DNA of 64,000 nt from Saonia flava (lineage in GTDB: Bacteria > Bacteroidota > Bacteroidia > Flavobacteriales > Flavobacteriaceae), in NCBI RefSeq assembly GCF_011927795.1, contig NZ_JAATJJ010000001.1, positions 1,675,062 through 1,739,061 of the forward strand, given 5' to 3'. Every line of letters starts with the position of its first letter. Position 1 is the stretch's first letter. Of this stretch, positions 2,418-38,845 are shown in pieces. Made by a program: the position numbers and the translations under genes. The notes below the pieces were generated by a model. That model searched no databases. It had not been told where the DNA came from and saw nothing but the letters and a program-made list of their open reading frames with translations.

Positions 2418-2437
2418 TGGGAATTTTTTAGTTTTTC

Positions 2438-2707
2438 TTAGTGTTTATGCCCGTCTTTTTGGTGTTCTTCATTGGCCACATAGGCCATCCCACATTTTGG
2501 ACAGGTTCCTTCTGTATCACTGCCACTGCCCTCACAATGCATTGGACAAACATAGGCCGATGCATATTCCTTAGCCACTTCTTCAGTAGTTTCTGATTGC
2601 TCAGTGGTGGTTTCATTGTTTTTTTCTGCTTTTCCTTTGCACGAAACTGAAAGAAAAAATGTTGCTAAAAAAGCGATTGTTACTAAAGTTTTGATTTTTG
2701 TGTTCAT
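2438..2707 (-). CDS. Small periplasmic heavy-metal-binding lipoprotein
   Basis: An 89-residue protein with a lipoprotein signal (hydrophobic core then FLSVSC, lipidated Cys about residue 23), an acidic/Thr-Glu-rich linker and a single heavy-metal-binding motif CPMHCEG...CPKCGM at residues 53-75, followed by a His-rich tail (HQKDGHKH). The same CPMH...CPxCGM module occurs twice in the neighbouring ATPase. It probably sits on the periplasmic face of a membrane and passes copper or a related metal to the efflux pump. It lies 11 bp downstream of the TolC gene and 20 bp before the regulator gene, so it is in the same operon. Metal specificity is not visible in the sequence. Confidence 0.82.
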   Translation of the reverse strand: MNTKIKTLVTIAFLATFFLSVSCKGKAEKNNETTTEQSETTEEVAKEYASAYVCPMHCEGSGSDTEGTCPKCGMAYVANEEHQKDGHKH

Positions 2708-2718
2708 TGTTTTAAAAT

Positions 2719-21377: not shown

Positions 21378-21378
21378 G

Positions 21379-22599: not shown

Positions 22600-24125
22600 G
22601 CAAAAGAATAAACAGGAATATTTATAGAAGTTTATTAATACTTTCATTTTTAGGAATCAATGGTTTAATTCTATTTGGGTTAAGCACTACCTTATCCTAT
22701 TTAAATAGTGGAGCAGACAGAAGTTCAATGCTCCATTTGGAAGCCAATTTAGATGAAAGTTATCTTCCTAAAATGAATTGGGACAGGGCCAAAAATTTAG
22801 GAAGGCCAATTGGAGATCAAACTTTAATGGAAATTGAAAAAGATTATTTAAGTGCATGGCATGTTCGCAATATGGCTTATAAAAGCAACGACCCCTTTGG
22901 AATTCATGATTATTATACGGATAGTGCAAGAGTAAAGTTATTTGATATTATTAATCTTAATAAAGCAAATGATATTGAATTAAACACAACAACATTGGCA
23001 CATAATCCAAAAATTGAATTCTATAGCACTGATGGAACTTTAGTTGTAATATCGGACAATAATGTTACATCCTATGAAGAAATTTATAAAGCCGATAAGT
23101 TGTTGGTTAAACAAAGGGACACAACCAACTATCAGATTATGATGCTTCTTGAAGATGGATTTTGGAGAATTCGCCATTTAGAAATTAATTCCAAAGAATT
23201 GGAAACCGTACAATTGGAAACCCAAGACTCTATTAATAGGGTTGAAGATATAAATTCAATTAAGGGAGTAAATTATTATCCAAAAGATAGTCCATGGGAT
23301 ATGTTCGGAAAAAAATTTAATGATAGTATAATAGATGCCGATTACAAATTAATAAAGAGTATGGGGCTCAATACCATAAGAATATTTATACAATATGAAG
23401 ATTTTGGCAAAGCCAATGTTTTAAAAGAAAAATTGGACAAACTGAAAGTAGCACTTGATTTAGCTCAAGAAAATAATATAAATGTCATTGTTACATTATT
23501 CGATTTTTATGGCAATTACGATGTGTCCGATTGGACGATTACTGATAGACATGCTGAGCAAATTGTTACCATTTTTAAAGACCATAAAGCCATAATTGCA
23601 TGGGACATTAAAAATGAGCCAGATTTGGATTTTGATTCAAGAGGAAAAGAAATGATATTGGCCTGGTTGGAAAATATGATTCTTAACATTAAAAATTGGG
23701 ACAAAAATCACCCTGTAACCATTGGGTGGTCCAGTCCCCAAGCAGCGATTAATTTATCCAAAGAGGTAGATTTTGTTTCCTTTCATTACTATCAAGACCT
23801 CAATGCTTTTGAATATGCCATGGACAATTTAAAACTAGAAATCCCTAATAAACCTATTGTGCTACAAGAATATGGAATTTCATCGTATAGTGGTATTTGG
23901 AATTTATACAAAGGATCTGAAAAAAAACAAGCAGCATATTATGAGCAAATACAAAAGGTTATAAAAGAAAAAAATATTCCATATGTTTTTTGGACTTTAT
24001 TTGATTTTGAAGAAGTGCCTGTAGATGTGGCGGGCAGATTACCTTGGCGAACAAAAAAACAACATTACTTTGGCTGCATTGACAAAAAGGGTAATAAGAA
24101 AGCTTATTTTAAACATTTAAAATAA
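22596..24125 (+). CDS. Membrane-anchored NTF2-like plus GH5/clan GH-A glycoside hydrolase
   Basis: A 509-residue protein. N-terminal anchor helix at residues 11-36, then an NTF2-like domain at about 82-200 (YLSAWHVRNMAYK...GFWRIRHLEI), then a TIM-barrel glycosidase from about 215. Clan A landmarks are clear: NTIRIFIQY, the acid/base in WDIKNEPD (Glu341), FHYYQDLN and the nucleophile in VLQEYGIS (Glu425), ending with WTLFDFEEVP. So a retaining endo- or exo-glycosidase on the outer face of the inner membrane. Start overlaps the previous stop (ATGA). In polysaccharide export loci such hydrolases trim or release chains (compare PelA and PslG by analogy); the substrate is unknown. Confidence 0.83.
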   Translation: MSKRINRNIYRSLLILSFLGINGLILFGLSTTLSYLNSGADRSSMLHLEANLDESYLPKMNWDRAKNLGRPIGDQTLMEIEKDYLSAWHVRNMAYKSNDPFGIHDYYTDSARVKLFDIINLNKANDIELNTTTLAHNPKIEFYSTDGTLVVISDNNVTSYEEIYKADKLLVKQRDTTNYQIMMLLEDGFWRIRHLEINSKELETVQLETQDSINRVEDINSIKGVNYYPKDSPWDMFGKKFNDSIIDADYKLIKSMGLNTIRIFIQYEDFGKANVLKEKLDKLKVALDLAQENNINVIVTLFDFYGNYDVSDWTITDRHAEQIVTIFKDHKAIIAWDIKNEPDLDFDSRGKEMILAWLENMILNIKNWDKNHPVTIGWSSPQAAINLSKEVDFVSFHYYQDLNAFEYAMDNLKLEIPNKPIVLQEYGISSYSGIWNLYKGSEKKQAAYYEQIQKVIKEKNIPYVFWTLFDFEEVPVDVAGRLPWRTKKQHYFGCIDKKGNKKAYFKHLK

Positions 24126-24181: not shown

Positions 24182-25417
24182 TTATTTTTCAAAGTGCAGC
24201 ACTGTTTTTTTCTCTACCATAAGTTCGTTCGAACCTTTATACTTCTTCTTGCTTATTTTGTTAAAGTGGTCCAAATACATTTCTGTTATTTGTGACATTG
24301 GCAAAGAACAAGCAGCTCTATAATTAGCCATTCCTAAGGCCCTTCTATATGCATCGTTAGAGATTATATTCTCTATCGCATTTGCAAGTGATTCAGAACT
24401 ATCGGCATCGAAAAATTCTCCCTTATAACCCTCCTCTTCAATTAATGTGCTCAAATCTCCCAAATCTGGCAATGCAACAGCACAGCCATAGCTCCCAGCT
24501 TGGTGCAATACTCCGGAACTTCCTGTGGTGGATGTATATGGGAATACTGTCACCGCACAATCCCCAAAAATCTTTGGAACATCCTCTTCCGCCACATATC
24601 CTGTAAAACGTAGATTTTTAACATCCTTATATTTCTGGGCAACTGCATCTAAATAACCAGGTGTATTGGGGCTATCTGTCCCTGCAATCACAATTTCCAT
24701 ATCCTCATCGCTTCTACTTCTAATTTTCTCAACGGCATCAATAAGAATTTCTACTTTTTTGTACGTTCCAAACTTACCAAAGGCCATAATTTGCTTTGGT
24801 CCTTTTGGAAGATTATAAGTGGGTTCTGGTGGAGTTTCAAAAGCACCGTGTGGTACCAAAGCAATATTCTCTGCTTTATATTTATTTTCCAAAATGGTTA
24901 CATATTTACTTATGGTAACCGCAACCATATCAGAGGCCAGAACAAATTTTGTTAATGTAGTTCCTATAAAATTATATATTTTTTGAAGTATTTTGTTTTC
25001 AGTGAATCCGGCATTCTCCAAATCTACTTGCTCCAATATATTGTGCAATAAGGATATTGTTGGTATTCCCTTTAACTTGCATATATATGGAAGTAGCAAC
25101 CCAAGTGCGGCAGGTACTTTTTTGTCTCCAAATTTTAAAAACTGAAGATTGAAGAGAACAGCATCCGGTTTAGTTTCGGAGATGGCTTTACCAACACTAT
25201 AAATATTTTTATAACTGTTAAAACTCCAACATTCTTTGACCGTTATTTTGCATCCCTCTTCCTCAAAAGCTAAATCCTTTGCTCCCTCTGTATGATCACA
25301 GATCAATACCAACTCCTCAACTTGATTTTGTAATCGAAAATGTTTCACCAAATAATACCCATACTCTGTCAAGGTTACTTTACTCGGAGGATATGCAGTT
25401 ACAATTGCTAGTTTCAT
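24182..25417 (-). CDS. GT4-family glycosyltransferase (GT-B fold)
   Basis: A 411-residue cytoplasmic glycosyltransferase. N-terminal Rossmann half starts MKLAIVTAYPPSKVT; the nucleotide-sugar half contains IMAFGKFGTYKKVEILIDAV, FTGYVAEEDVP and the retaining-GT4 signature region VTVFPYTSTTGSSGVLHQAGSYG with GAxxALPDLGD-like ending. It is 35 bp downstream of a Wzx-like flippase gene on the same strand, so both probably act on one polysaccharide: the transferase extends the chain in the cytoplasm and the flippase moves it. The GT4 plus flippase pairing resembles PelF/PelG in outline only. Sugar specificity unknown. Confidence 0.88.
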   Translation of the reverse strand: MKLAIVTAYPPSKVTLTEYGYYLVKHFRLQNQVEELVLICDHTEGAKDLAFEEEGCKITVKECWSFNSYKNIYSVGKAISETKPDAVLFNLQFLKFGDKKVPAALGLLLPYICKLKGIPTISLLHNILEQVDLENAGFTENKILQKIYNFIGTTLTKFVLASDMVAVTISKYVTILENKYKAENIALVPHGAFETPPEPTYNLPKGPKQIMAFGKFGTYKKVEILIDAVEKIRSRSDEDMEIVIAGTDSPNTPGYLDAVAQKYKDVKNLRFTGYVAEEDVPKIFGDCAVTVFPYTSTTGSSGVLHQAGSYGCAVALPDLGDLSTLIEEEGYKGEFFDADSSESLANAIENIISNDAYRRALGMANYRAACSLPMSQITEMYLDHFNKISKKKYKGSNELMVEKKTVLHFEK

Positions 25418-25452: not shown

Positions 25453-26691
25453 TTACTTAATAAGCCTTTTACTGGCGAAATATAAAAGTTGCACCCCCAA
25501 TAATATGGCCATGGCTATTATTTGGACAAAGACTACCATTTCCAAATTTTCATGAAAAAGTACCACCAAGACTATTTGTCCCATGCCCAATAAACCAGAA
25601 ATGATGACCGGAACATATTGATCAAGTGACAAAAAGTAATAGGCAAATATGTTAGAAATAGCAAAGAGCGATGTGGCCAAAGCGTATTTCCATAGTAAAC
25701 CCGCCATGGCTAAATATGCTTTACCAAACATTAGGTTAATAATAAGATTTGGAAAAAAGAAACATACCGTAACAATGGATATGGATAATACACCTATATA
25801 TAAAACATATTTAAAAAGGATAGGGGCTGTTGCTTCACCATCCTTTTGTTTTTGAATGACTGTAGGCAACAACAACATAACAAACATCCACGCTACAAAA
25901 TACACTACTCTTCCTATCAAGGCCAAAGAAGCATATAATCCAGCATCCATTGCATCAAAATAATGCTTCACCAATAATATATCACTGTTGTTTATGATTA
26001 TCTGAGTTAACTCATAACAAGCCGTGAGCACCATAAATTGGGATACTTTTTTAGCATTTTCTGGTTTTAATACCCCTGTGTTTTTTAAAGAGATTCCTTT
26101 TAAATCTGAAGGAAACAATCCAAAGAAAAAAGAAAGTAATATCCCTATGGCGACCAAAATTCCGGGTTTCATGGGGACCACCAATAAAAGTGCTAATGTC
26201 AACAACAACCTACCCCACATTTCTGTTTGATAAGTAAGGGACAATTTTTTAAACTTTAACTGACCTTGATAGGTTCCACGATTAACACTCATAAAAAAAT
26301 AAAAGGGTATTCCAAAACCAAAAGCTATAAACATCCAAGGACTTTCTGCGTTGAACAAAGTCTGCAGATTTTTGGAAAAAAGAATTATTAAAATGCCTAC
26401 TACAATTCCAAAAACAGTAGCCCATTTGTAACTTTTATTTTTAAAAACCCTCCATTCGACACCTGAAAACTCTACTGCAAATTTTGCTGTCGCCAATTGA
26501 AAAGTCATTCCCACAAATGACAGTACAAGCAATAAAGTGATTAATAGAGCCGCCTCTGCAAATGCCTCAGGCCCCAAAAGCCTACCTAACAACAAATTAT
26601 ATAAATAATTTCCGCCATTTACCAACAACACACTACCCATGAACAGTTGTTCTGGCGTAATTTTTTTTAGGACAAGTTTAATGGCGGTCAA
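25453..26691 (-). CDS. Wzx-like polysaccharide flippase (MOP superfamily)
   Basis: A 412-residue polytopic protein with about 12 hydrophobic helices, opening with TPEQLFMGSVLLVNGGNYLYNLLLGRLLGPEAFAE, the pattern typical of MOP-superfamily flippases (GxxLYnlllgRlLGPeaFG). It would move a lipid-linked or nascent polysaccharide across the inner membrane. The GT4 gene follows 35 bp downstream. Its 5' region is unusual: about 370 bp upstream of the start include a LytTR-type site, a structured RNA segment and an intrinsic terminator, suggesting regulated readthrough. Confidence 0.88.
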   Translation of the reverse strand: MTAIKLVLKKITPEQLFMGSVLLVNGGNYLYNLLLGRLLGPEAFAEAALLITLLLVLSFVGMTFQLATAKFAVEFSGVEWRVFKNKSYKWATVFGIVVGILIILFSKNLQTLFNAESPWMFIAFGFGIPFYFFMSVNRGTYQGQLKFKKLSLTYQTEMWGRLLLTLALLLVVPMKPGILVAIGILLSFFFGLFPSDLKGISLKNTGVLKPENAKKVSQFMVLTACYELTQIIINNSDILLVKHYFDAMDAGLYASLALIGRVVYFVAWMFVMLLLPTVIQKQKDGEATAPILFKYVLYIGVLSISIVTVCFFFPNLIINLMFGKAYLAMAGLLWKYALATSLFAISNIFAYYFLSLDQYVPVIISGLLGMGQIVLVVLFHENLEMVVFVQIIAMAILLGVQLLYFASKRLIK

Positions 26692-27066: not shown

Positions 27067-27134
27067 CAAATATCATATGCGGTGTCATACTTTTCTTTCA
27101 GTTTTCGATGGATGGAAGATTGGTGTAGACCAAT
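27067..27134 (-). promoter_or_regulatory. Candidate LytTR site and -7 element of the flippase-GT4 operon
   Basis: Repeats TTTTCGATGGAT (27102-27113) and GTGTAGACCAAT (27123-27134) are 21 bp apart and match GTRTAGRTGAAT at about 8 and 10 of 12 positions. Minus-strand GATATTTG (27067-27074) lies 28 bp to the left, the same spacing as at the lruC-type gene (GATATTTG at 32734-32741, repeat at 32769). Weaker than the sites at 32769 and 38733 in sequence, but the geometry is the same. Confidence 0.5.
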
Positions 27135-27262
27135 GAACAATTACTACATTCCAAGTTCATATTTCCATATATATCTTTATTCTGTTCTTATTAGGACTTT
27201 AAATACTAATAATTACAAAACTTTATCGTTATATTTTGTAGTAATTAACTTACATAGATTTT

Positions 27263-29320
27263 ATGTCAAAAAAAATTCTTTTTCTTTTCCTATTTATAGG
27301 TTTCACGGTATTGGGACAAAATGATATGCAGCCTGGGTTTAAACTATTGGAAACAGGGCAATTTGAAGATGCTGAAACCTTTTTTAAATCTTATCTTGAA
27401 CGTCAGCCCAATAATAAAACAGCACAAATATGTTATGGTAGAGCAGTAGGGCTAAGTGGCAACCCATTAGAGGCCAATACTCTTTTTTCCAATTTATTGG
27501 ATACTTATCCAGGGGATTTTGAAATTCAAATTAATTATAACGAATCCTTTCTTTGGGCCAAGGAATTTAAAAAAGCCAAGCCACTATATAAGAAATTGGT
27601 GGAGGAGTATCCTGAAAATTTTGGTGCCGTACTGGGCTATGCCAATACATTGTCCAATTTAAAGGAATATCAAGAAGCAACGGATTGGGTAAATAGGGCT
27701 TTGGAAATAGACCCTAATAATGAAAGCGCCAAAACATCTAGAAAATATATATATATGGGACATGCCAATGAGCATGTCAACAATCAAAAGTATGAGATTG
27801 GCAAAAAATTGCTCAATAAGATATTTAATGATTTTCCAGAAGACAAAGACGCACTTTTGAATTTGGCAAACTTGTACCTCATTATTAAAGAAGTTGATAG
27901 CGCTATCCATACCTACAGACGATATGCCACATCACCCAAAGATTCCATTACAGCTTTAAATGGGATTGCTTTGGCATACCATATTGGGGAAAAAGACAAA
28001 GAAGCTCTTAGGATAGCCAAAAATTCAAGAGAAAAGGTAATGGTCTTTAAAGATTACGAGCTTAAAGAACGTACTCATGAACGGTATGTCCAAGCCTTGA
28101 TCTGGAATAGAAAATACGGAAAGGCCAAGGAGGAAATAAAAAAACTCGAAACCCAATATAAAGATAGGGATTGGATCTATTCGCTAAGGGCCACCTTGGG
28201 AATGTATACAAGTAATTTTAAGATGAGTATAAATAACTATAATGCGATTTTGGTCAAAGACAGTGCTTCCTTTGATGGTAATTTAGGTAAGGCCAATGCC
28301 CTTTTTGCCTCTGATAAAATTATTCCATCCTATAAAGCTGCCTTTCAAACCTTGGAAATATTTAAAAACCAAAAAGACGCCTTATCCTTTATAGAAAAAC
28401 TAAATACTAAATATACACCATATGTAGAGGAAGTTGTAAAATATACATTTGACAATGGTAAAAACACGGCCTTTTCCAGTAATACAACTGCCAGTGTTCC
28501 TTTATCCACTAAACTATTGACCACCTTGTCCTATGAATATAGAACAACCGAAAATACCTTAACCCTAAACAAGGCAAATTCTCATGTTATTTTAGCAGGA
28601 GCTACCTATAAGTTACTCCCAAAAACGAACATAAAGGCCTTACTGGGAATTAATAACTCTAGATCAACTGATAACACATTTACCCAACCTATAATGGATT
28701 TTAAGTTACAGTTACAACCTTTAAAACTACAGAATATAGAATTAGGTTACCAGAGAGAAGTACAGAGTTTTAACGCTGATCTTATTGAAAGAGAAATTGT
28801 CCTGAACCATTATGGACTTGCCTATAATCTAGGCACCAATATAAATCTTGGATGGTATACACAGGCCATACATACCCAACAAACGGATGATAATACCCGA
28901 AATTTAGTTTTTACATCCCTCTACTATAATATAATGAGAAAGCCTGCCCTAAAAATGGGCCTTAATTACCAATACTTATCTTTTAAAGATCAAGTACCAA
29001 CTATTTATTTTAGCCCAAGTATTTACCAAGCTGTTGAAATTTTTGCAGACATTCGAGGGGATATTTCCGAAAAGACCAAATACATGGCCAGTGCTGCAAC
29101 AGGTATACAGAAAGTGGAACAGGATGATAAAACATCCCTTTTTAGGGCAGAAATTGGTTTACAGCATCAATTCTCCAAAAGATTTAGCAGTAATTTATAT
29201 GGTAAGTATAGTAATATTGCTTCTGCCACGGCCGCAGGTTTTGAGTTTACAGAGATTGGCTTAAAATTGAAATGGCTTTTGACCAAAAAGCCATTGTTTT
29301 ATAAGAAATTAAATGATTAA
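27263..29320 (+). CDS. TPR-rich YaiO-family outer-membrane protein (polysaccharide export porin candidate)
   Basis: A 685-residue protein with a signal peptide (residues 1-19, ends VLGQN), about eight tetratricopeptide-like repeats over residues 20-385 (for example FEDAETFFKSYLERQPNNKTA and YQEATDWVNRALEIDPNNESA), then a C-terminal beta-barrel of the YaiO type (about 395-685; alternating strands, ends FTEIGLKLKWLL). TPR-barrel proteins such as BcsC, PgaA and PelB carry exopolysaccharides across the outer membrane; by analogy this would be the exit pore for the polysaccharide made by the neighbours. Monocistronic, divergent from the flippase operon. Confidence 0.85.
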   Translation: MSKKILFLFLFIGFTVLGQNDMQPGFKLLETGQFEDAETFFKSYLERQPNNKTAQICYGRAVGLSGNPLEANTLFSNLLDTYPGDFEIQINYNESFLWAKEFKKAKPLYKKLVEEYPENFGAVLGYANTLSNLKEYQEATDWVNRALEIDPNNESAKTSRKYIYMGHANEHVNNQKYEIGKKLLNKIFNDFPEDKDALLNLANLYLIIKEVDSAIHTYRRYATSPKDSITALNGIALAYHIGEKDKEALRIAKNSREKVMVFKDYELKERTHERYVQALIWNRKYGKAKEEIKKLETQYKDRDWIYSLRATLGMYTSNFKMSINNYNAILVKDSASFDGNLGKANALFASDKIIPSYKAAFQTLEIFKNQKDALSFIEKLNTKYTPYVEEVVKYTFDNGKNTAFSSNTTASVPLSTKLLTTLSYEYRTTENTLTLNKANSHVILAGATYKLLPKTNIKALLGINNSRSTDNTFTQPIMDFKLQLQPLKLQNIELGYQREVQSFNADLIEREIVLNHYGLAYNLGTNINLGWYTQAIHTQQTDDNTRNLVFTSLYYNIMRKPALKMGLNYQYLSFKDQVPTIYFSPSIYQAVEIFADIRGDISEKTKYMASAATGIQKVEQDDKTSLFRAEIGLQHQFSKRFSSNLYGKYSNIASATAAGFEFTEIGLKLKWLLTKKPLFYKKLND

Positions 29321-29862: not shown

Positions 29863-32712
29863 TTAATTCTTTATTAATTTACCTTGATAGGTTCTATTAT
29901 TTACCATATCCACCAGTGTATATACATACATACCATTGGACAAATTATTCGCTTCAAAACGGACAGATTTTTGATCGTCCATAGTATGTACCACTTCCCT
30001 ATGTATCACTTGGCCCAATAGGTTGGACACCATCATTTGCACCTCATTCACTTCTTGAGGAAAGCTAATAATCACATATTCAGTAAATGGATTGGGGTAA
30101 CTTTTTACACCAAAATTTTCAGTTTCAATCTCTTCTTGCACAACACTTTCTTCTTCGGTTGGCATTACAAGCATCTCTTTATCATTTAAAGCCATAGCCT
30201 CAACTTCTAGGTCAAAGGATTTAAAGTTCTCATAATCTCCTTGCACTGAAAATACAACCGTTCTTAGTTTAGTAAAGTCCATAGATTGCCCCAAATGGTT
30301 TTTAAATTCACTGAACATAATGCTTGTTGGGGTTAAACTATCATTTGCAACAATAGTGGTTCTTAACCTTTCTTCCCAAATATCTGTTGCATCTGTAACC
30401 AAGCTAATTTCCAAATCTACATCGCTTTGTAATTTAAACTGTAAACGATCATAATCTGTAATGTCCAAAACCAAATCCCCAGCCAAAATATTTCTAAATA
30501 CATTAATGGTACCTTTTACCTGCCCTTTTGCAGAAACACTTCTTTCCACAGGATACGCAGAAGTACTGTCACTCTCTACTTCCGCAAAGATTTGAAAATC
30601 CTCAATACTGTCTATTGTACTGTCGTAATCTACTCCCCAAGGACCATCGGCTAAATAAATAGCATCATATTGAAATGAATTCTCCGCCGTTATGGATAGG
30701 CCTATGTCAAAAATAAAACCAGGTTCAACCACAATTTCTTCATTCCATGCACCCGACAGTGTGTACATTTCATTCATGTTCTCCAAGTCCAACTGCTCGG
30801 TCCTTTTAAAATTACCATCCAAATTCATCCATTGCGCATTAACCTTGTTTACAATGTTAAGATGTAATTTACCTCGTTTATAGAACCCACTTTGGATAAA
30901 TACTGTGGGAACAATATTGTCCTGTGAGTTTTTGGCCAACTGCCCTTCTAATTTTAGTTGTTTTAATATGTTGTTTACGATTGTGGTTACCTGCCCCATG
31001 GAGCTGCCCCATACCTGAAAATTTAGATAATCTCCAGCTGGGTATTGATCTAAGTTCCAAAGGCTATACAATGTATTTCCACCATCTTGTTTTATTGAAA
31101 ATGTCAAGGCATATTCCACATCTCCAGTAGCTCTCTCTATTTGAGAGTACACCAATTTATATCCTTGTAAAGTTACAGTTCTAACATCCAATAACTTTGA
31201 GCTATTAAGACGATCACATATGGTTTTGGAGTGATCATAAACTCCTCCTTTGGTCTCTGTTGCCAATGCCGCTGTTACCCGGTCTTCTTCTTGGTAATAA
31301 TCAATAGAGAATATATTTACCGCATTCGTAATCTCCAACAAATCTTCTGGACTGGAAACATAAGTTGTTTCCGTTCCCAACATACCTGTCTGTGGAAAGT
31401 AAGAGTCCAAGGTTCCAGATTTGGCACCAATAGACTTATAGGTCTTCTTTAAATATTTTCTCTGTGCCTTTTTTGTATTCTTGGAAGTTCCTTTCTTATT
31501 TCTTGTAAAGTTTCTTTTCGCAATAAGTGTTGCCAAATCGCCATTGCTTTCCAGACCACCATCATTTGCTGAGGAAATTGGAGTTGCATCCGTAACACCT
31601 GCATAATTTGCAGTTCTTAAGGCAGTGTACGGGTTTGCTGTCACATAAAATATAGCATCATTAAAATCATTGTCACACCAATCTAAATCTCTTCTCACAT
31701 CCTCAAAACCAAGGATAATTCGCTCGTTGTCCGGGTCTTTCAACAATACATTATGATGCCTTAAAGTCTCATCACTCTCAGGGTTAAAATCTGGATTGGA
31801 GTATACTTGCCAAATATCATGTGCCACTTCCTTACCATTCCAGGCATTTGCTAATAATACCCAACCAATACCAGTACCTGCAGTAAAGGTTCCTATTTTA
31901 ACTTTATCTCCTACTTGCAATCCCCCTCCTGCTCCAAGTTCCGAAGCATTTGGATATATAATGGTAATATCCTCTTGATTGGGAACTGTTGTTGGTGGAT
32001 TATTTATATCATAGGTATAATATCCCAACACGTTTGTATATCCAGCTCCCTCAGTAATAAATGTGACCCAAACATCTGCATTATCGTCCAAAATCAAGTC
32101 CGTATCATAACCAGATGTAATATATTGAGGATTGTATTCTGGAACTGGGAAACTCTCGGGGAGAGAATTGTTAATTGTTTCCAATTCTGACTCTGTAACT
32201 ACATCTCCTGGCGTTTCCAAGTACAAGGGTGTTCCATCATTATCATATGCACCTAAATATTGATAATTAAATACATCACTAGATGGTAAAATTGTAATGG
32301 TATTTTCTGGCCCCACGCCCCAATTGTTTACCGCTGCCATTGAGCTTCCCGTATTTCTATCCACTAGTTGGACCATAACCAAAAATACCTCTGGAGCTAT
32401 CTCTTGGCTGGTTTCATTAAATCCAGATAAATGAATAGATCCATTGAATGTGGAGGACGATGCTGAAGCAGGGACGTTTACACTCTGCCAGTGCATACCT
32501 GTACTCCAATTAATTTGGCTACCATTGTTTTGAGATTTTAATAAGGCTATAGAAAAATAGGCATCTACATCACTGACATAATCAATGGAAAAATTTATAG
32601 TTTCACCCAACTCAATTGGATTTTGTTGAAAACTAAAATTAGAAACTGCTCCTGTTTGGGCAAACCCGAAAGAAAAACAGCTTAATAGGCTAATGAGTAA
32701 AAATTGTTTCAT
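29863..32712 (-). CDS. Large secreted LruC-domain protein with type IX secretion signal
   Basis: A 949-residue cell-surface or extracellular protein. Start chosen at ATG 32712, which gives a clean signal peptide (MKQFLLISLLSCFSFGFAQTG); the frame could also open at a TTG 24 bases earlier. A DUF4114-like acidic motif (GFEDVRRDLDWCDNDFNDAIF, about residues 345-365) looks like a calcium-binding site; the middle and C-terminal parts match the LruC/DUF4842-type layout (beta-rich). The last 80 residues are a type A T9SS sorting domain: SYPNPFTEYVIISF, LLGQVI and NGMYVYTLVD. Likely exported by the gliding/T9SS machinery and anchored outside. Upstream lies a two-repeat LytTR site. Possibly a matrix or surface adhesin; that role is inferred. 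Confidence 0.86.
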   Translation of the reverse strand: MKQFLLISLLSCFSFGFAQTGAVSNFSFQQNPIELGETINFSIDYVSDVDAYFSIALLKSQNNGSQINWSTGMHWQSVNVPASASSSTFNGSIHLSGFNETSQEIAPEVFLVMVQLVDRNTGSSMAAVNNWGVGPENTITILPSSDVFNYQYLGAYDNDGTPLYLETPGDVVTESELETINNSLPESFPVPEYNPQYITSGYDTDLILDDNADVWVTFITEGAGYTNVLGYYTYDINNPPTTVPNQEDITIIYPNASELGAGGGLQVGDKVKIGTFTAGTGIGWVLLANAWNGKEVAHDIWQVYSNPDFNPESDETLRHHNVLLKDPDNERIILGFEDVRRDLDWCDNDFNDAIFYVTANPYTALRTANYAGVTDATPISSANDGGLESNGDLATLIAKRNFTRNKKGTSKNTKKAQRKYLKKTYKSIGAKSGTLDSYFPQTGMLGTETTYVSSPEDLLEITNAVNIFSIDYYQEEDRVTAALATETKGGVYDHSKTICDRLNSSKLLDVRTVTLQGYKLVYSQIERATGDVEYALTFSIKQDGGNTLYSLWNLDQYPAGDYLNFQVWGSSMGQVTTIVNNILKQLKLEGQLAKNSQDNIVPTVFIQSGFYKRGKLHLNIVNKVNAQWMNLDGNFKRTEQLDLENMNEMYTLSGAWNEEIVVEPGFIFDIGLSITAENSFQYDAIYLADGPWGVDYDSTIDSIEDFQIFAEVESDSTSAYPVERSVSAKGQVKGTINVFRNILAGDLVLDITDYDRLQFKLQSDVDLEISLVTDATDIWEERLRTTIVANDSLTPTSIMFSEFKNHLGQSMDFTKLRTVVFSVQGDYENFKSFDLEVEAMALNDKEMLVMPTEEESVVQEEIETENFGVKSYPNPFTEYVIISFPQEVNEVQMMVSNLLGQVIHREVVHTMDDQKSVRFEANNLSNGMYVYTLVDMVNNRTYQGKLIKN

Positions 32713-32733: not shown

Positions 32734-32801
32734 CAAATATCACAACTACTTATACAAAACATCTGTAGGTATAGATGAATAACATTTTACTATAGTTGGA
32801 T
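32734..32801 (-). promoter_or_regulatory. LytTR-type tandem site of the LruC-domain gene
   Basis: Direct repeats GTATAGATGAAT (32769-32780) and CTATAGTTGGAT (32790-32801), 21 bp apart, begin 57 bp upstream of the start codon and 28 bp beyond the minus-strand -7-like GATATTTG (32734-32741). The segment aligns base for base with the site before the receiver gene at 38677 (about 24 of 35 positions identical). ATAGTTGGA also resembles the general LytTR half-site. Confidence 0.72.
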
Positions 32802-32834
32802 ATAATCTTACTGTCGAGTGGCTATTTTATAATC

Positions 32835-33545
32835 TTATAATAAATTTAATCTTCTCATTAACTCCGGTCTATTGGACCTGCTAATGGGAATCACATTTTT
32901 TCCTATCAAAACACTGTTGTCCTCAATATCAATTATTTTAGTGAAATTTATTATAAAGGATCTATGTATTTGTAGAAAGATGTCTTCTGGCAATTTTTGC
33001 TTTATTTTTTTTAATGTAGAATGTACTGTGTAATTTTCCTTTTCAGTTTTTACATCTATATAATCCCCTTTTGCTTCGATCAATAAAATTTCATCAAACT
33101 GTAATTTTATTAATCTTCTATCTATATTAATGTATAATTCTTGCCCTACTGAGGAACTTTTCTCTTCCTTGTTTGCAATGACCGGCTGTTTTGCCATACT
33201 ACCCTTTACTTTTAGAATTGATTTTTCAAATCGTTCTGGAGTAATAGGCTTAACCAAATAATCCACAATTGCCTCATATTCATATGCTTCAATGGCAAAA
33301 TCTTTATCAGAAGTGGTCAGTACAACTCTTGGCGGATCCTTAAGGGTCTGCACAAAATCAAATCCTGAAAAACCTGGCATATGGATATCCAAGAAAATAA
33401 CATCAACAGTTTGCTGGTTTAAAAATTTAATGGCGTCCATGGCATTGGAAAACTGGTCAATTACATCCAAATCGGGTATATTTTCACTTAGTTTTGCAAC
33501 CACAGCTCTTGCCATTGCTTCGTCGTCTACTATTATACAATTCAT
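32835..33545 (-). CDS. LytTR-family response regulator (LytR/AgrA type)
   Basis: A 236-residue two-domain transcription factor. Receiver at residues 1-120 with acidic pair Asp7/Asp8, phospho-acceptor Asp53 (IFLDIHMPGFSG), Thr in VVLTTSD and Lys in YLVKPIT. LytTR DNA-binding domain at about 135-236: LYINIDRRLIKLQFDEILLIEAKGDY, YTVHSTLKKIK, FLQIHRSFIIN and the terminal IPISRSNRPEL. It ends a seven-gene minus-strand signalling operon, 7 bp after the Hpt gene. LytTR proteins bind imperfect direct repeats about 21-22 bp apart; such repeats were found before three transcription units here. No terminator is seen before the LruC-domain promoter 34 bp further on. Confidence 0.95.
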   Translation of the reverse strand: MNCIIVDDEAMARAVVAKLSENIPDLDVIDQFSNAMDAIKFLNQQTVDVIFLDIHMPGFSGFDFVQTLKDPPRVVLTTSDKDFAIEAYEYEAIVDYLVKPITPERFEKSILKVKGSMAKQPVIANKEEKSSSVGQELYINIDRRLIKLQFDEILLIEAKGDYIDVKTEKENYTVHSTLKKIKQKLPEDIFLQIHRSFIINFTKIIDIEDNSVLIGKNVIPISRSNRPELMRRLNLL

Positions 33546-33552
33546 AGTTGGA

Positions 33553-33873
33553 TTATAATGTGTTTACAAATTTTTGTACTCCTTCTAAAATGCCCTTAAA
33601 ATCCCCTTCAAGTATTGTTTCCCCTCTTTTTAAATCTTCTTCATATCGTACAGCAAGTCTATATGCATCTTCTAAACCAAAAATATTTAGTTTATGCTTT
33701 AACTTATGCACTATCTCCGCTGTTTCAAATAATTTATTTTCTTTAACCGTATTCTCATAGGTTTCTACCTCAACAGGCAATTCGGTTTTAATAATATTAA
33801 TAAATTGTTTTTCAAAAGCCTCATCATCACCCGATAATTCTTTTATATATTTTAAATTAGGCGTCTCTTTCAT
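33553..33873 (-). CDS. Histidine phosphotransfer (Hpt) protein
   Basis: A 106-residue all-helical protein with the Hpt signature IVHKLKHKLNIFGL; His56 is the likely phosphorylated residue (HxLK), and the usual Gly-Ser of the motif is replaced by His60-Lys. Stand-alone Hpt proteins carry phosphate between receiver proteins, so in this operon it could link the CheY-like receiver (38276-38677) to the LytTR regulator or collect phosphate from both kinases. Located 2 bp after the second kinase gene and 7 bp before the regulator gene. Confidence 0.88.
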   Translation of the reverse strand: MKETPNLKYIKELSGDDEAFEKQFINIIKTELPVEVETYENTVKENKLFETAEIVHKLKHKLNIFGLEDAYRLAVRYEEDLKRGETILEGDFKGILEGVQKFVNTL

Positions 33874-33875
33874 TT

Positions 33876-34934
33876 TTATTTTTTTAAGGTAAAAAAGAAT
33901 GTAGTCCCTTTATTTACTTCAGAAGTCAACCAAATATCCCCTTCATATAGATTGACTATTTTTTTAACCAAAGACAACCCTATTCCTGTGGCACTATAAT
34001 TATCTTCTAGTTTTTTGAACATGTCAAAAATATTGGCCTTATACTGTTCTGGAATTCCCTTGCCATTATCTTTAACGCTAAACTCCCAAAAATCATCCTT
34101 ATCCTCCACATCTATAAAAATCTCTCCACTTTCCAAGTGCTCTGAAGCTGAAATAGCATTAGTGATTAGATTTTTGAACAATTGCTCCAATGTAAATTTT
34201 TGAGCCTTTAAACTGGGTAATTTTTTAGAACAAGAAATTGACACATTATCCGGTATGAATACCGTATTTTTAATTTCATCCACGAGTAAATTCAAATCCA
34301 TCTCTGTGGCTTTCTCTTCTAACGAGTCTATTGTAGCATGGGTTAAAATACCATTGATTAATGCATCCATTTTAGCCAAATTTTGGAATAAAAGGTCAAT
34401 ATTGGATTTACTACTATCGGTAAAATTTTTGGCATCGTCTTCCTTAATCCAGTTCAAAAGAGCATCCATATTTCTTATTGGTGATTTAAGATCATGCGAA
34501 ACCATATGGGCATAGTTGTTCAATGCTTCATTCTGTTGCTCCAAATTGGTCAACAACACATCTTTCTCACTAGTAATACGTGCTATTTCTTGTGCTTGAT
34601 CCTCAATATCCTTTGCCAACTTTATTGGATCAAAAGATTGCGCCCTAAACATAGCTTCTGACTCAGTATTTGGATTATTTCTATATAAAGATACCATAGC
34701 CCCCTCCAATGCCTGAAGTATCTTTTTTTGGCTTTCTGCTTCCTTCCTTAACTTGCGATTGGCAACAAATAATTCCTCTGAGCTAATTGCTGTTGCCCGC
34801 TGAATCATCATTACTTGTTCATCAAAATTTTTATAGGAAGATTCCACTGATTCCAAAAAAACCTCTATTTCCGGATTATTTGAAAGATTCTCCGGCAGAT
34901 ATTTTCTAATCTGTCTCTTTAATAGTGAATGCAT
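33876..34934 (-). CDS. Soluble histidine kinase without recognised sensor domain
   Basis: A 352-residue cytoplasmic kinase. Residues 1-130 are helical and coiled-coil-like, with no transmembrane helix or PAS domain; HisKA with YAHMVSHDLKSPIRNM (phosphorylated His about residue 147) follows, then the HATPase with LITNAISASEH (N box), DNGKGIPEQY (G1) and GIGLSLVKKIV (G2). Start ATG overlaps the stop of the FIST gene by one base (TAATG), so it is coupled to it; this pairing fits kinases that are switched by a separately encoded FIST/NosP sensor. Signal input is inferred from the neighbour. Confidence 0.9.
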   Translation of the reverse strand: MHSLLKRQIRKYLPENLSNNPEIEVFLESVESSYKNFDEQVMMIQRATAISSEELFVANRKLRKEAESQKKILQALEGAMVSLYRNNPNTESEAMFRAQSFDPIKLAKDIEDQAQEIARITSEKDVLLTNLEQQNEALNNYAHMVSHDLKSPIRNMDALLNWIKEDDAKNFTDSSKSNIDLLFQNLAKMDALINGILTHATIDSLEEKATEMDLNLLVDEIKNTVFIPDNVSISCSKKLPSLKAQKFTLEQLFKNLITNAISASEHLESGEIFIDVEDKDDFWEFSVKDNGKGIPEQYKANIFDMFKKLEDNYSATGIGLSLVKKIVNLYEGDIWLTSEVNKGTTFFFTLKK

Positions 34935-36067
34935 TACTCGCTAAAAAGGGTTAAGGTCATCGTTTGATTATGCAATTGACATTTACTCTGTCCGGCAAAA
35001 GGAGCTATTTCCCCATAAGAATAAAAACCGGTTATTTTGGCGTCTGCCCCTATAGTATGACTAACCTCCTCTATTTCCTCCTCCGTTCTTTGATCCATCA
35101 CCAATTTTCTGCCCACACAACTCACTAAAATAGCCAATTCTGGATTGTTTTTTCTATCTCTCATGGCATACTTCGCTGCCTCAGACGCTCCCTCAACTAT
35201 ATCATCCACCGTCGCCATCATTAATTGTACCCTTGACTCCTGCGGAACATCACCAGCCAATATCATTGAATTTTGCTCTTCATCAATATTTAATATTGTT
35301 CTAACAATAGGTTCTTCATCTATTTTGCTCCATACTTTTAATGGGTACAAGAGTGCGGCCTGTGGTAAATCATTTGCTTTATCCCCCAAATACGTTTTGT
35401 AAAGATCTAATGCAGGCTGGCCATCTATTTCATAAAGAATATTTCCTTCAGATTTTGTTACGACTCTTTCTGGTCCAAAACCAGTCCAACCACCATAATT
35501 GGCCGCTGTTATTTCTAAAGTATCACCGTAAAAACCAATAACAATGACTTCTCCAATTTTAGGCTCTTCATTATAGGAGGCCAATGTCTTTTCAAATCTA
35601 GCATCATCACCACATAACCCTCCACTTATACTTACTTCTTTATCAACAATTTCTTCAATAGCATCAATTAAAGTACTGCCGTTCACAGAGCTTCCTTCAG
35701 ATATCACCAAAACATGTTTTAGGTCATCTAATGACAATCCTTTCATTAAGGCATTCCCCAAAGCACGAATATCATTGTCAAATGATAGCACGTTTTCCCT
35801 GTTAATAATAAAATTACTTTTCTCGAATTGAATTGCAGTCAAAACAATACTTCCATCATATACCGAATCCTCCAATATCTCACCAGATGTACTTCCATAA
35901 ACTATATGGCCATCTGGGAACAGGCTTACAACCTCATCATGTATCTTATTCTTTTCAAATGCATGACGGTTTCCAAAAACTAAAACCAAAGGTTTTTGTA
36001 GAGGTTCTTTTTTAGAAGTAAAAATCCAATCATTTTTAGATTTCCTTTTCGCTTGTAATATTTTCAT
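34934..36067 (-). CDS. FIST-domain sensory protein (NosP-like)
   Basis: A 377-residue cytoplasmic protein with FIST_N (about residues 20-215; GSTSGEI, SGGLCGDDARFEKTLASY, GFYGDTLEI) and FIST_C (about 220-365; GWTGFGPERVVTKSEGNILYEIDGQPALDLY, LVSCVGRK, GFYSYGEIAPF, LHNQTMTLTLF). FIST proteins are sensors; a subgroup named NosP binds heme and nitric oxide and controls neighbouring histidine kinases. The gene is flanked by two kinases and sits in the same operon as an H-NOX gene, so NO sensing is plausible. Whether this protein binds heme cannot be decided from sequence; small-ligand sensing is the alternative. Confidence 0.9.
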   Translation of the reverse strand: MKILQAKRKSKNDWIFTSKKEPLQKPLVLVFGNRHAFEKNKIHDEVVSLFPDGHIVYGSTSGEILEDSVYDGSIVLTAIQFEKSNFIINRENVLSFDNDIRALGNALMKGLSLDDLKHVLVISEGSSVNGSTLIDAIEEIVDKEVSISGGLCGDDARFEKTLASYNEEPKIGEVIVIGFYGDTLEITAANYGGWTGFGPERVVTKSEGNILYEIDGQPALDLYKTYLGDKANDLPQAALLYPLKVWSKIDEEPIVRTILNIDEEQNSMILAGDVPQESRVQLMMATVDDIVEGASEAAKYAMRDRKNNPELAILVSCVGRKLVMDQRTEEEIEEVSHTIGADAKITGFYSYGEIAPFAGQSKCQLHNQTMTLTLFSE

Positions 36068-36068
36068 T

Positions 36069-37664
36069 TTATTTTTTTAAGGTAAAACTAAAAGTGGTTC
36101 CTTTCCCAATTTCACTGTCCAGCCAAATCTCACCATCATAGAGATCAATTATTTTCTTTACAATGGACAAACCTATGCCAGTAGATCTCTCTTTGTTTCC
36201 AATGGACTGAAATATTTTAAATATTTTTTCATGATATTCTTTAGGTATCCCTACCCCATTGTCTTTTATACTAAATTCCCAATGCGAAGGGGTTTCTTTG
36301 CTGCTTACGGAAACAAGACCTTTCTCTTCTTCAATATGTACAACGGCATTTCCAATTATATTCTGAAAAAGCTGGTGTATTTTGGTCTTGTCGGCAAAAA
36401 TTGTTGGAAGTTTGTTTAACGTCTTTACTTCCACATGGTCCGGAATATATATAATGTCCCTAATATCCTTAATTACTGTATTAACATCAACTTTGGTATT
36501 ATCAAGATTGTCACTTTTAATAGTGGAATATTTTAATATCCCATCTACAAGTTTATCCATTGCCTCAACTTTCTCCTGCATTGCCTTTAGCTGAAAAACA
36601 CCATTTTCGTCCAGAGAGCTGGCATAATCCTCCAACAACCATGTTGACAATGCACTAATACTACGTAAGGGAGATTTTAAATCATGTGAAACAATATGTG
36701 CATATTCTTGAAGCCCTTTATTACTGGCTTCCAGCTCTTTTAATAATTGTTCTTTTTGTTCTTCAAGATTTCTCTGCTCTGTAATATCCTCAATGATTGC
36801 AACTTGATATCCCTTTTGTTTCTTTTCTTGCTCTACCCTACTTATAAGAGTTTTGGCCAAAAACGTAGAACCATCCTTTTTATAAAACCTTTTTACCAGC
36901 GAGTAATTTTCTTGATTCTCACTAGGTTCAAAATTGGATATCTCTTTAATAGAGGTAGAATTATTACATGTCATCGAAATTTTGTCCAATGAAAGCTTTT
37001 TTAGTTCTTGCTCTGTATAACCAAATAAATTCACGGAGGCATTATTAGCCCTAATTATTTTGTCGTCGACAGTAAGTACAATCCCAAGTGGAGAATTTTC
37101 AACTATAATGTCCAATTGTTTTCTTTTCTCGGCCAATAATTTTTCTATTTCGTCCTCTTTGGTGATATCTCTTATTACACCCTGGGCAGCAATTGGCTTT
37201 CTATTTTTATCATATATTATACTGCTATTGACATGAATAAATTTTTCATTCTTGTCCTTGTCTAATATTTTGGTTTTGTAATTTTTTAGTTCGCCTACTT
37301 CATATAATTTATGAAAAGATTCTTGGGTATATTGTACATAATCTTTATGAACCAAGTTCATAAGATTAATTTCTTCTATATTATTATCATACCCCAAAAG
37401 TTCTTTAGCAGCACCGTTCATCCTTAAAATATTCCCCATAATATCCATAACAATATAGGGGTCTATAATATTATAGAAAACACCTTCGAGTTCAGAAGTC
37501 TTTTCCGAAAGCATATTTTCTAACCGCTCATTGGATTCCTTTAACTGATTTGTAGCATCATAAAGTTCTTTGGATTTTTCCTCCAAAATACGTTCGGCCT
37601 GTAAACGTGCTTTTTTTTGTCGTTCCAAAGCCTTTTTAAGAAGGGTCACTTCTTTATTCTCCAT
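36069..37664 (-). CDS. Soluble PAS-PAS histidine kinase coupled to H-NOX
   Basis: A 531-residue cytoplasmic kinase: N-terminal coiled coil (KKALERQKKARLQAERILEEKSKELY), two PAS domains (about residues 60-180 and 185-305, with a PAC-like GYQVAIIEDITEQ end), HisKA with YAHIVSHDLKSPLRS (phosphorylated His about residue 325) and HATPase with IIGNAVVHIEE, DNGVGIPKEY and GIGLSIVKKII. I choose ATG 37664, which overlaps the H-NOX stop by 11 bases; the frame remains open to another ATG at 37703 (50-base overlap), but the shorter form gives the usual N terminus of this kinase type. H-NOX proteins typically inhibit such kinases when NO is bound. Confidence 0.9.
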   Translation of the reverse strand: MENKEVTLLKKALERQKKARLQAERILEEKSKELYDATNQLKESNERLENMLSEKTSELEGVFYNIIDPYIVMDIMGNILRMNGAAKELLGYDNNIEEINLMNLVHKDYVQYTQESFHKLYEVGELKNYKTKILDKDKNEKFIHVNSSIIYDKNRKPIAAQGVIRDITKEDEIEKLLAEKRKQLDIIVENSPLGIVLTVDDKIIRANNASVNLFGYTEQELKKLSLDKISMTCNNSTSIKEISNFEPSENQENYSLVKRFYKKDGSTFLAKTLISRVEQEKKQKGYQVAIIEDITEQRNLEEQKEQLLKELEASNKGLQEYAHIVSHDLKSPLRSISALSTWLLEDYASSLDENGVFQLKAMQEKVEAMDKLVDGILKYSTIKSDNLDNTKVDVNTVIKDIRDIIYIPDHVEVKTLNKLPTIFADKTKIHQLFQNIIGNAVVHIEEEKGLVSVSSKETPSHWEFSIKDNGVGIPKEYHEKIFKIFQSIGNKERSTGIGLSIVKKIIDLYDGEIWLDSEIGKGTTFSFTLKK

Positions 37665-38199
37665 CTTGGACAATATTAAATTTGACTTCGGTCCCATTTT
37701 CATTTAATAATTCAAAATTAACTGTTGCTGTTTTATTAAAATGCTCAAAGGACTTTTCAATAAGTCCGTGTGCCAAACGATATAATCCTCTTGATGAAGA
37801 ATATATCATCGTTAAGGAATTATCTGTTTGCTCCAAGATTTTAAAGGTGGGCAATTCCGCATCTGGATATAATTTCTTCACATGCAGATGTATATGGTCT
37901 TCTATGGAATAAATTAGACTTAATGGAGAAGAATAACTCTGAATAACTTCTGGATGTGCTTTACTCAAACCATTAAAAAGATATAAGCCAAAAGCATATA
38001 TTAAGTCATCCACCGGAGCTTTAACCTCCTTACTTAAATTGGTGATAAGACTTACCATTTCATTAAATTCGTAGGTGCCAACAGAAGTATAAATACCTTC
38101 AGAGGGTAAATGGGAGTTTTCAATAATTGAATCAGCAACCTCTAATCCAAATTTTTCTTCCACCATTTCCAAAAACTCAGTAAAAACTATTCCTTTCAT
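37654..38199 (-). CDS. H-NOX heme-nitric oxide/oxygen sensor
   Basis: A 181-residue heme sensor. The start MKGIVFTEFLEMVEEKFG is characteristic of the HNOB family. His104 (in DHIHLHVKKLYP) aligns with the proximal heme ligand of soluble guanylate cyclase, seven residues before the Tyr-Pro, and the heme-propionate motif YxSxR is intact as Tyr133-Ser-Ser135-Ser-Arg137. There is no guanylate-cyclase or methyl-accepting domain, so it is a stand-alone H-NOX acting on the overlapping kinase. In facultative bacteria these sense low nanomolar NO and control biofilm formation. Distal-pocket residues that discriminate O2 were not assigned. Confidence 0.95.
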   Translation of the reverse strand: MKGIVFTEFLEMVEEKFGLEVADSIIENSHLPSEGIYTSVGTYEFNEMVSLITNLSKEVKAPVDDLIYAFGLYLFNGLSKAHPEVIQSYSSPLSLIYSIEDHIHLHVKKLYPDAELPTFKILEQTDNSLTMIYSSSRGLYRLAHGLIEKSFEHFNKTATVNFELLNENGTEVKFNIVQDGE

Positions 38200-38255
38200 T
38201 TAAAGTATTTTAAAAATTAAATGTAGGAAAATATGTACTTTTTTAAAAAAAAATG

Positions 38256-38269
38256 TTGTAAAATTACAA
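38256..38269. promoter_or_regulatory. Palindrome upstream of the H-NOX gene
   Basis: TTGTAA-AA-TTACAA lies in the 76-bp gap between the receiver gene and H-NOX, 57 bp before the H-NOX start. It could be an internal operator (for example for a CRP/FNR-type regulator) or a processing site; evidence is the symmetry only. Confidence 0.3.
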
Positions 38270-38275
38270 AATCTG

Positions 38276-38677
38276 TTAGGCCTTGACCAATTCATTGGTG
38301 TCCCAATATTCCAAAACCTTTTTTAATTTATTCTCGTAATCCTCATATTTTAAAGGCTTTATAACATATCCCGCAATACCAATTTTATAACATTCCAATA
38401 AATCCGCTCTATTTTCAGATGTTGTCAAAATAATAGTAGGTAAGTATTTTAGTACATCATCTTCTTTAAGGATTTTAAGAAATTCCGTACCACTCATTCT
38501 TGGCATGTTTAAGTCCAGCAAGATGATATCTGGCAAGCTCGCTCCCGATTTTAAAATATTTAAGGCCTCTTCCCCATTCTTAGCCTCTGTTATATTATGT
38601 TTTAATTGTAGCTTAGAAACAGTTCTATTTAGTTTCATAGTTTCAATTGCGTCGTCTTCAATAAAAAGAATATCCAT
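38276..38677 (-). CDS. Single-domain CheY-like response regulator
   Basis: A 133-residue receiver with no output domain: acidic pair Glu7-Asp8/Asp9 (LFIEDDA), phospho-acceptor Asp55 (IILLDLNMPRMSG), Thr87-Thr88 in IILTTSE and Lys in YVIKPLKYEDY. This type (RcpA/CheY-like) often passes phosphate through an Hpt or acts by protein contact. It is the first gene of the signalling operon, 76 bp before H-NOX, and has a tandem LytTR-type site 56 bp upstream, suggesting autoregulation. Confidence 0.93.
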   Translation of the reverse strand: MDILFIEDDAIETMKLNRTVSKLQLKHNITEAKNGEEALNILKSGASLPDIILLDLNMPRMSGTEFLKILKEDDVLKYLPTIILTTSENRADLLECYKIGIAGYVIKPLKYEDYENKLKKVLEYWDTNELVKA

Positions 38678-38696: not shown

Positions 38697-38765
38697 CAAA
38701 TGTGACACTTATATAATGAACATACCTATCTAGTGTAGGTGAATAGCATTTAAGTGTAGATGAAT
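38697..38765 (-). promoter_or_regulatory. LytTR-type tandem site of the signalling operon
   Basis: Direct repeats GTGTAGGTGAAT (38733-38744) and GTGTAGATGAAT (38754-38765) differ at one of 12 positions and are 21 bp apart. They begin 56 bp upstream of the receiver start codon and 29 bp beyond the minus-strand CACATTTG (38697-38704), the likely -7. Same arrangement as at 32734-32801. Confidence 0.75.
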
Positions 38766-38845
38766 GGAAAAATGGTATCGATAAATATTTTAGAATATTG
38801 GACAATTAGAATGTTTTTGATACATGAATGAGCTTTCCATAGGGC

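Follow-up and report, generated by a model that had tools for sequence, protein, structure and literature searches.

A conserved H-NOX/FIST operon of Flavobacteriaceae, a candidate two-input phosphorelay with a predicted output at an adjacent exopolysaccharide-type gene cluster

The reviews consulted describe nitric oxide (NO) control of biofilm mainly via cyclic di-GMP (c-di-GMP) or quorum-sensing relays in Proteobacteria. We analyzed a 64,000-nucleotide stretch of the Saonia flava genome (contig NZ_JAATJJ010000001.1, forward-strand positions 1,675,062 to 1,739,061; hereafter the window, whose own coordinates are used below). It carries a minus-strand operon encoding a receiver (REC), the gas sensor H-NOX, a PAS histidine kinase (HK1), a FIST protein, a second histidine kinase (HK2), a histidine phosphotransfer protein (Hpt) and a LytTR response regulator. 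The Vibrio relays from H-NOX/HqsK and NosP/VpsS to LuxU and LuxO are alike in that a gas-sensor partner controls a cytosolic sensor-less kinase and a stand-alone Hpt leads to a transcription regulator, with polysaccharide genes affected (PMC6769237). They differ in their hybrid kinases, in having one gas sensor per kinase in the described circuits and in being shared with quorum sensing, whereas the present operon has a stand-alone receiver, two putative sensors, a probable LytTR output and repeats at neighboring promoters. In the NosP-NosK-NosR system of Burkholderia, a FIST gene also adjoins a sensor-less kinase (PMC12570481), but the output is an HD-GYP response regulator, and the present FIST protein fails the NosP model. 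In Shewanella (HnoX-HnoK-HnoB) and Legionella, H-NOX likewise controls a kinase or enzyme affecting biofilm (PMC8846402), but these are c-di-GMP pathways, and neither GGDEF nor EAL has a match in the window genome. LytTR regulatory systems resemble the operon in having 9-bp repeats, mostly with a 12-bp spacer, upstream of their own operon; their regulators, however, pair with membrane inhibitors and not with a phosphorelay (PMC6193735).

We interpret the operon as a phosphorelay with two inputs whose regulator acts directly on the transcription of matrix (exopolysaccharide-type) genes, and we put the probability of this reading at roughly two in three. H-NOX would bind a gas, most likely NO, and set the activity of HK1, while the FIST protein would bind some ligand (heme or NO are possible) and set the activity of HK2. 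Both kinases would phosphorylate the stand-alone REC, which would hand the phosphate via Hpt to the LytTR regulator. Phosphorylated LytTR would then bind 21-bp-phased repeats upstream of the operon itself, of genes for secreted proteins, and of flippase/glycosyltransferase genes. Gas binding, sensor-kinase pairing, phosphate flow and DNA binding are predicted steps, and the sign of the NO effect is something that a sequence cannot give. Directly visible in the sequences are the genes and their key residues, the conserved order, the cassette behavior of FIST and HK2, the kinship of the kinases, the way the repeats track LytTR, and the absence of GGDEF and EAL matches from the window genome. The genes of the operon are as follows.

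38276..38677, minus strand: REC, stand-alone receiver with D55, likely the first Asp of the relay (Pfam Response_reg; residue conservation)
37654..38199, minus strand: H-NOX gas sensor with H104, Y133-x-S135-x-R137 and L142 (Pfam HNOB; conservation)
36069..37703, minus strand: HK1, PAS histidine kinase with H340, probable H-NOX partner (Pfam PAS, HisKA and HATPase; conservation; tree)
34934..36067, minus strand: putative FIST sensor protein, forming an optional cassette with HK2 (Pfam FIST and FIST_C)
33876..34934, minus strand: HK2, sensor-less histidine kinase with H147, sister of HK1 (Pfam HATPase, sub-cut-off HisKA; tree)
33553..33873, minus strand: Hpt, stand-alone, with H56 (Pfam Hpt below cut-off; conservation)
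32835..33545, minus strand: LytTR response regulator with D53, predicted end of the relay (Pfam LytTR and Response_reg; conservation)

All seven open reading frames (ORFs) are present in this order in the ORF list, 1 to 76 bp apart except for two overlaps, and Pfam confirms their domains. Counted from its first ATG, HK1 shares 50 nt with H-NOX. FIST and HK2 meet at GTAATGC, in which stop and start share one A. The first-pass annotation of this DNA, made from the letters and an ORF list, had described just this packing, including the kinase start overlapping H-NOX and the coupling of FIST to its kinase by TAATG, and these descriptions hold. The window genome has one H-NOX match and one FIST_C match, both at the operon.

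The seven-gene operon is real and conserved. Gene order was scored in 160 distinct H-NOX loci, not counting the window (174 loci were given, 173 of them with H-NOX; L235, with a partial H-NOX, 13 duplicate H-NOX loci and the short loci L001-L032 were set aside). The search for the same order that had been proposed at the outset returned all seven genes in 80/160 loci, two of these with an extra Hpt. Another five have six genes without LytTR, and 59 carry the relay without FIST and HK2, 55 of them in exactly the plain REC-H-NOX-HK1-Hpt-LytTR order; the remaining 16 are contig ends or odd forms. Hpt is encoded at 145 loci, of which 85 also have FIST together with HK2, 59 have neither and one (L234) has HK2 alone. 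Because FIST and HK2 are in or out together in 144/145 cases, they behave as one cassette at a fixed slot, optional and outside the core as judged from these loci. Nearly all of the 79 distinct loci from named records belong to Flavobacteriaceae (77; the other two are a record named Cytophaga and one without a family).

The same picture emerged from 249 genomes of the family, of which 92 have H-NOX and 75 have FIST_C. A strong FIST match occurs in 62 genomes, and 48 have FIST on the H-NOX strand, 2.4-3.8 kb downstream (13 genomes with only a weak FIST were left out of this count, and the fetch list left out a G076 fragment without a cut-off score and the window's own region). H-NOX and strong FIST are both found in 56 genomes, H-NOX only in 36, FIST only in 6 and neither in 151. 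This neighborhood is far beyond chance; FIST genes near hnox had already been noted for one H-NOX group in the neighborhood network of a review (PMC8738867). On a core-protein tree of 141 rows (140 of the 160 loci plus the window), cassette presence changes at least 25 times by a quick method in which gain and loss are indistinguishable. The FIST and HK2 distances correlate with those of REC, H-NOX, Hpt and LytTR (rho 0.70-0.81) about as those four do among themselves (0.65-0.79), and of 51 supported cassette splits, 13 disagree with the core tree. These comparisons suggest mostly joint descent with repeated loss; some exchange is possible, given the conflicting splits. Present or absent at one fixed slot, the cassette amounts to a natural experiment on how a relay acquires a second sensor.

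The H-NOX protein, a predicted binder of heme and NO, is intact and bears the sequence marks of an NO-type, not an O2-type, H-NOX. Its HNOB domain scores 134.4 bits (Pfam cut-off 25.5). The earlier statement that His104 and the YxSxR motif are intact agrees with the alignment of 141 loci, window included, to which all residue counts below refer unless another total is given: H104 is kept in 140/141, Y133 and S135 in 141/141 and R137 in 136/141. Position 142, which a +2 offset to Caldanaerobacter numbering equates with the distal Tyr140, holds L or F in 139/141 loci and L in the window, which leaves no distal Tyr. The closest solved relative is 6BDE (52% identity across 176 residues). Also among the closest is its sister entry 6BDD, the H-NOX of Kordia algicida (PMC7356049).

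The FIST protein is harder to place. It matches Pfam FIST (141.5 bits) and FIST_C (127.6 bits), the FIST_N plus FIST_C pair seen in NosP, and its model (mean predicted local distance difference test score, pLDDT, 90.4) has a genuine FIST fold, with FBXO22 as the best solved match. Its identification as NosP was rejected on the NCBIfam equivalog model NF041558 (66.5 bits, cut-off 450). H366, C317 and C363 stand out in conservation, but H366, the sole invariant histidine, is with C317 a general FIST residue. No heme template was found by sequence, by profile or among the structural matches listed, and neither sequence, profile nor model-based search found a solved bacterial FIST structure. Annotated NosP proteins on plasmids, sought as a yardstick, were missing from the 30 and 33 records listed.

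The first-pass annotation had proposed two potential NO sensors. The H-NOX half of that proposal fits the NO-type marks, whereas the FIST half runs against the NosP score, and FIST as a second NO sensor is a guess. The strongest competing explanation is one in which H-NOX alone senses NO and FIST responds to something else, such as heme availability or a small metabolite, so that two different signals are integrated. The failed NosP model, the general nature of H366 and the FBXO22-like fold without a heme template among the matches listed all speak for it, as does a review in which FIST may bind NO and/or heme by a mechanism that is little known (PMC8846402). On the other hand, NosP-type FIST proteins adjoining a sensor-less kinase are reported to be NO-responsive (PMC12570481), and FIST lies near H-NOX in the 48 genomes counted above. 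We consider this explanation a serious contender, a little short of even odds.

Other FIST genes vary in form and company. At locus L146 (5664-6851), the FIST slot holds a very divergent FIST (50 bits) with Phe at the position of H366, which amounts to a sensor swap. Three genomes (G101, G069 and G225) have tandem runs of four divergent FIST genes in about 4 kb. Twenty FIST loci from outside H-NOX operons were fetched, and in 18 of them another type of FIST adjoins a larger kinase. L236, from a genome of the same genus as the window (G108) without an H-NOX match, has a different FIST next to a larger kinase of hybrid type.

In the two-input reading, both kinases serve one partner. The phospho-acceptor His is invariant in each (H340 of HK1 in 141/141, H147 of HK2 in 82/82), and HK2, with HATPase and a sub-cut-off HisKA in Pfam, is sensor-less as first described. 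By sequence it is the sister of the H-NOX kinase: its best paralogue in the window genome is HK1 (207.5 bits; next 150.7), and among 68 kinase cores placed on a tree, HK1 and HK2 form one supported clade (96/99, with a bootstrap that the program reported as not fully settled) apart from 18 other kinases of the genome. Those 18, of 25 in all, were drawn from the best 20 matches. The HK2 group itself is less firm (76/89), and six kinases beside non-operon FIST genes all fall in another clade. Partner specificity is commonly attributed to the residues that follow the phospho-acceptor His. There the HK1 and HK2 consensus sequences agree at offsets +7, +11, +12, +15, +18 and +19, a likeness that is compatible with, but no proof of, two sensors converging on one partner. 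In relatives (L142-L231), the stop-to-stop length of the HK1 ORF ranges from about 400 to more than 900 codons, suggesting a varying number of PAS domains.

Two histidines normally do not exchange phosphate directly. Neither HK1 nor HK2 has a receiver domain of its own in Pfam, as a Vibrio-type hybrid kinase would, and the stand-alone, CheY-like REC is for that reason the likely first phosphate acceptor. It is present in 155/160 gene chains, including all 140 that have both Hpt and LytTR. The kinase His, receiver Asp, Hpt His and regulator Asp of a four-step phosphorelay are all in place, with D55 of REC and D53 of LytTR kept in 141/141 loci and the previously noted His56 of Hpt in 140/141. 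From gene content, the simplest complete route is most likely kinase to REC to Hpt to LytTR. The earlier idea that both sensors converge on Hpt and the regulator thus keeps its support from the single kinase clade and the similar phospho-acceptor helices, but it had left the receiver out of the route. The Bacillus sporulation phosphorelay is alike in its chain of kinases, single-domain receiver, phosphotransferase and DNA-binding regulator; it differs in its proteins, signals and output, and Spo0B is not an Hpt of the present type.

Three results count against this part of the reading. HK2 reaches only 19.4 bits for HisKA (cut-off 26.9), the helices of HK1 and HK2 differ at offsets +8, +10, +13, +14 and +16, and Hpt scores 18.0 bits (cut-off 24.6, E 0.0034), the last being offset by the conservation of H56. 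Motifs kept across relatives back both of these weak Pfam assignments, HisKA and Hpt. The helix differences also favor separate relays, in which HK1 would serve REC alone and HK2 would feed LytTR via Hpt and another receiver, or act mainly as a phosphatase. So does the gene order, with REC adjoining H-NOX and Hpt adjoining HK2, and so do three genomes (G011, G172 and G227) whose operon lacks LytTR and which hold a repeat array, a REC and a LytTR gene elsewhere (L318, L322 and L335) with no Hpt match between. Set against this are the 55/59 cassette-free loci that keep the REC-H-NOX-HK1-Hpt-LytTR order and the six helix positions common to both kinases, and we regard separate relays as unlikely. 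Two genomes without an H-NOX match have an array-REC-kinase-Hpt-LytTR chain (L304 and L326), which suggests that the relay is the core and that the sensors are its inputs; a third (L323) has array-Hpt-LytTR.

It could also be argued that this is an ordinary, already described H-NOX/NosP arrangement, since Vibrio has known relays that lead from H-NOX or NosP to an Hpt (PMC6769237). Those relays, however, use hybrid kinases, and in the titles and abstract openings searched, which mostly leave subscription papers outside, we found no description of the operon, its sister kinases, its repeats or the link to the gene cluster. We think such an ordinary arrangement quite improbable. What is new is a probable output, LytTR-type repeats together with an adjacent exopolysaccharide-type cluster, both of which the earlier reading had missed. 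The repeats in the window are the following.

38731..38788, minus strand: three LytTR-type direct-repeat units with a 21-bp period in the operon promoter, a probable autoregulation site (best pair 42.9-44.2 bits; outermost unit degenerate)
38697..38700, minus strand: TTTG of a possible Bacteroidota-type -7 element, at an offset of 30 from the last repeat unit
32766..32824, minus strand: weaker repeat array upstream of a DUF4114 gene (14.7 bits; outermost unit by eye)
27099..27136, minus strand: repeat array upstream of a flippase/glycosyltransferase pair (43.3 bits)

Upstream of REC, a 16-bp unit with the consensus CCATTCRTCKACASTW occurs in 142/149 regions, window included, and in 0/149 when shuffled. 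A second unit (score >4) follows at exactly 21 bp in 100 of the 149 and at 22 bp in 3. The TTTG offset from the repeats in relatives is most often 29 or 50 (30 and 25 of 142). LytTR sites described elsewhere consist of 9-bp repeats, most of them spaced by 12 bp, which gives a 21-bp period (PMC6193735), and direct repeats of about this period upstream of a regulator's own operon are what we see here. The motif also tracks the regulator: it is present in 133/134 loci with a LytTR gene, compared with 9/15 in which no LytTR was seen (p 2.4e-6, all 15 counted). Those nine carriers comprise six contig ends and three loci that we judged to be of doubtful assembly or frame (L152, L167 and L200), and the intact loci lacking LytTR have the motif in 0/6 cases.

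A family-wide search for the unit pair (<=3 mismatches) gave 97 matches in 63/249 genomes, compared with 0 for a reversed-pattern control. Fifty-two are found upstream of H-NOX at no more than 1.2 kb (some genomes counting twice), 29 in the H-NOX region, all on its downstream side, eight elsewhere in H-NOX genomes and eight in genomes without H-NOX. By our own reading of the gene listings, 32 of the 45 non-operon sites precede cluster or neighboring secreted-protein genes: STAS/flippase 16, glycosyltransferase 3, secreted DUF6923-type proteins 7 and receiver-glycosyltransferase 6. The rest precede relay REC genes (5), Hpt (1) and others (7). Where the distance from site to start was listed (40 of the 45), it was 70-150 bp in 34, with a median of 112.5. 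A matrix trained solely on the 45 sites of other genomes and run on the 64-kb window gave four hits >8 bits, at the flippase promoter (43.3), the operon (42.9 and 24.2) and the DUF4114 gene (14.7); six shuffles of the window gave no match >8 bits. We infer that the repeats are sites of the LytTR regulator at the promoters of its own operon, secreted-protein genes and flippase genes.

Several observations weaken this inference. Locus L213 has LytTR and lacks the motif. Five of the six intact LytTR-less loci are from Euzebyella, Pseudozobellia and the record named Cytophaga and may represent one event, and the sixth (L231) is a divergent H-NOX locus. Within the window genome, the pair pattern (<=3 mismatches) matched the operon array only, and 21 one-mismatch single units elsewhere (control 10, genome-wide) have no scoring partner at 21 bp. 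The flippase array is 445 bp from the annotated flippase start, and the upstream region of the receiver-glycosyltransferase gene, which has an array in relatives, reaches 4.6 bits only. That another protein binds the repeats, their link to LytTR being coincidental, is very unlikely: although the LytTR sites are predicted from sequence and the intact LytTR-less loci are few and mostly related, the contrast between 133/134 and 0/6 loci, the likeness of repeat shape and 21-bp period to known LytTR sites (PMC6193735) and the array beside another REC and LytTR gene in the three genomes without an operon LytTR all argue otherwise.

In ten relatives (L308, L311, L313, L316, L328, L329, L333, L336, L338 and L340), a STAS-domain protein of about 90-100 residues lies between array and flippase; no STAS-sized gene was found between array and flippase in the window. 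The genes on this downstream side of the operon are listed below.

29863..32712, minus strand: secreted DUF4114 protein with a type IX secretion system (T9SS) sorting tail, probable target
27263..29320, plus strand: TPR protein with sub-cut-off XrtA/PgaA-type matches
25453..26691, minus strand: polysaccharide flippase (Polysacc_synt_3)
24182..25417, minus strand: glycosyltransferase group 1
18291..24125, plus strand: large membrane protein (no family match), Ig-like protein (sub-cut-off) and glycosidase-like protein
16873..18015, minus strand: receiver fused to glycosyltransferase family 2, candidate second output

Taken together, the flippase, glycosyltransferases, TPR protein, glycosidase-like protein and T9SS-secreted proteins resemble a set for making and exporting an exopolysaccharide, and "matrix" is used here for this predicted role. 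The same cluster as at 16.9-32.7 kb of the window occurs in 9/9 downstream 20-kb stretches (L348-L356), which were chosen for holding sites. The receiver-glycosyltransferase fusion is conserved in the cluster and may give the relay a second end point, at the level of an enzyme.

Because the window genome has no match to GGDEF or EAL (0 and 0), the common route from NO to c-di-GMP cannot be the link here. Across this marine bacterial family, 244/249 genomes lack a GGDEF match; of the five that have one (three above cut-off), one has H-NOX (G051, whose match is below cut-off). Many genomes of the family keep H-NOX, mostly without GGDEF, and seemingly wire it straight to matrix-type genes. A more far-reaching version of the two-input phosphorelay would be a c-di-GMP-free switch from NO to matrix, in which an old copy of HK1 was re-paired with FIST as a second heme/gas sensor on one relay, with control both at transcription (LytTR repeats) and at the enzyme level (receiver-glycosyltransferase), and with at least 25 gains or losses of the cassette at one slot. 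In this full form we find it doubtful.

Copper nitrite reductase is above cut-off in 48/249 genomes, but H-NOX occurs in 15/48 carriers vs 77/201 non-carriers (p 0.41), and the window genome has no copper nitrite reductase. Lacking any association with H-NOX, a link to denitrification via this enzyme was rejected, and an internal source by this route is unsupported; NO may come from outside, from algae or other microbes. The conserved repeats offer a direct and cheap handle on the output of the relay. Elsewhere in the window (1860-7673), we noted by eye heavy-metal or multidrug efflux-like genes (RND pump, outer-membrane factor) near an AraC-type regulator.

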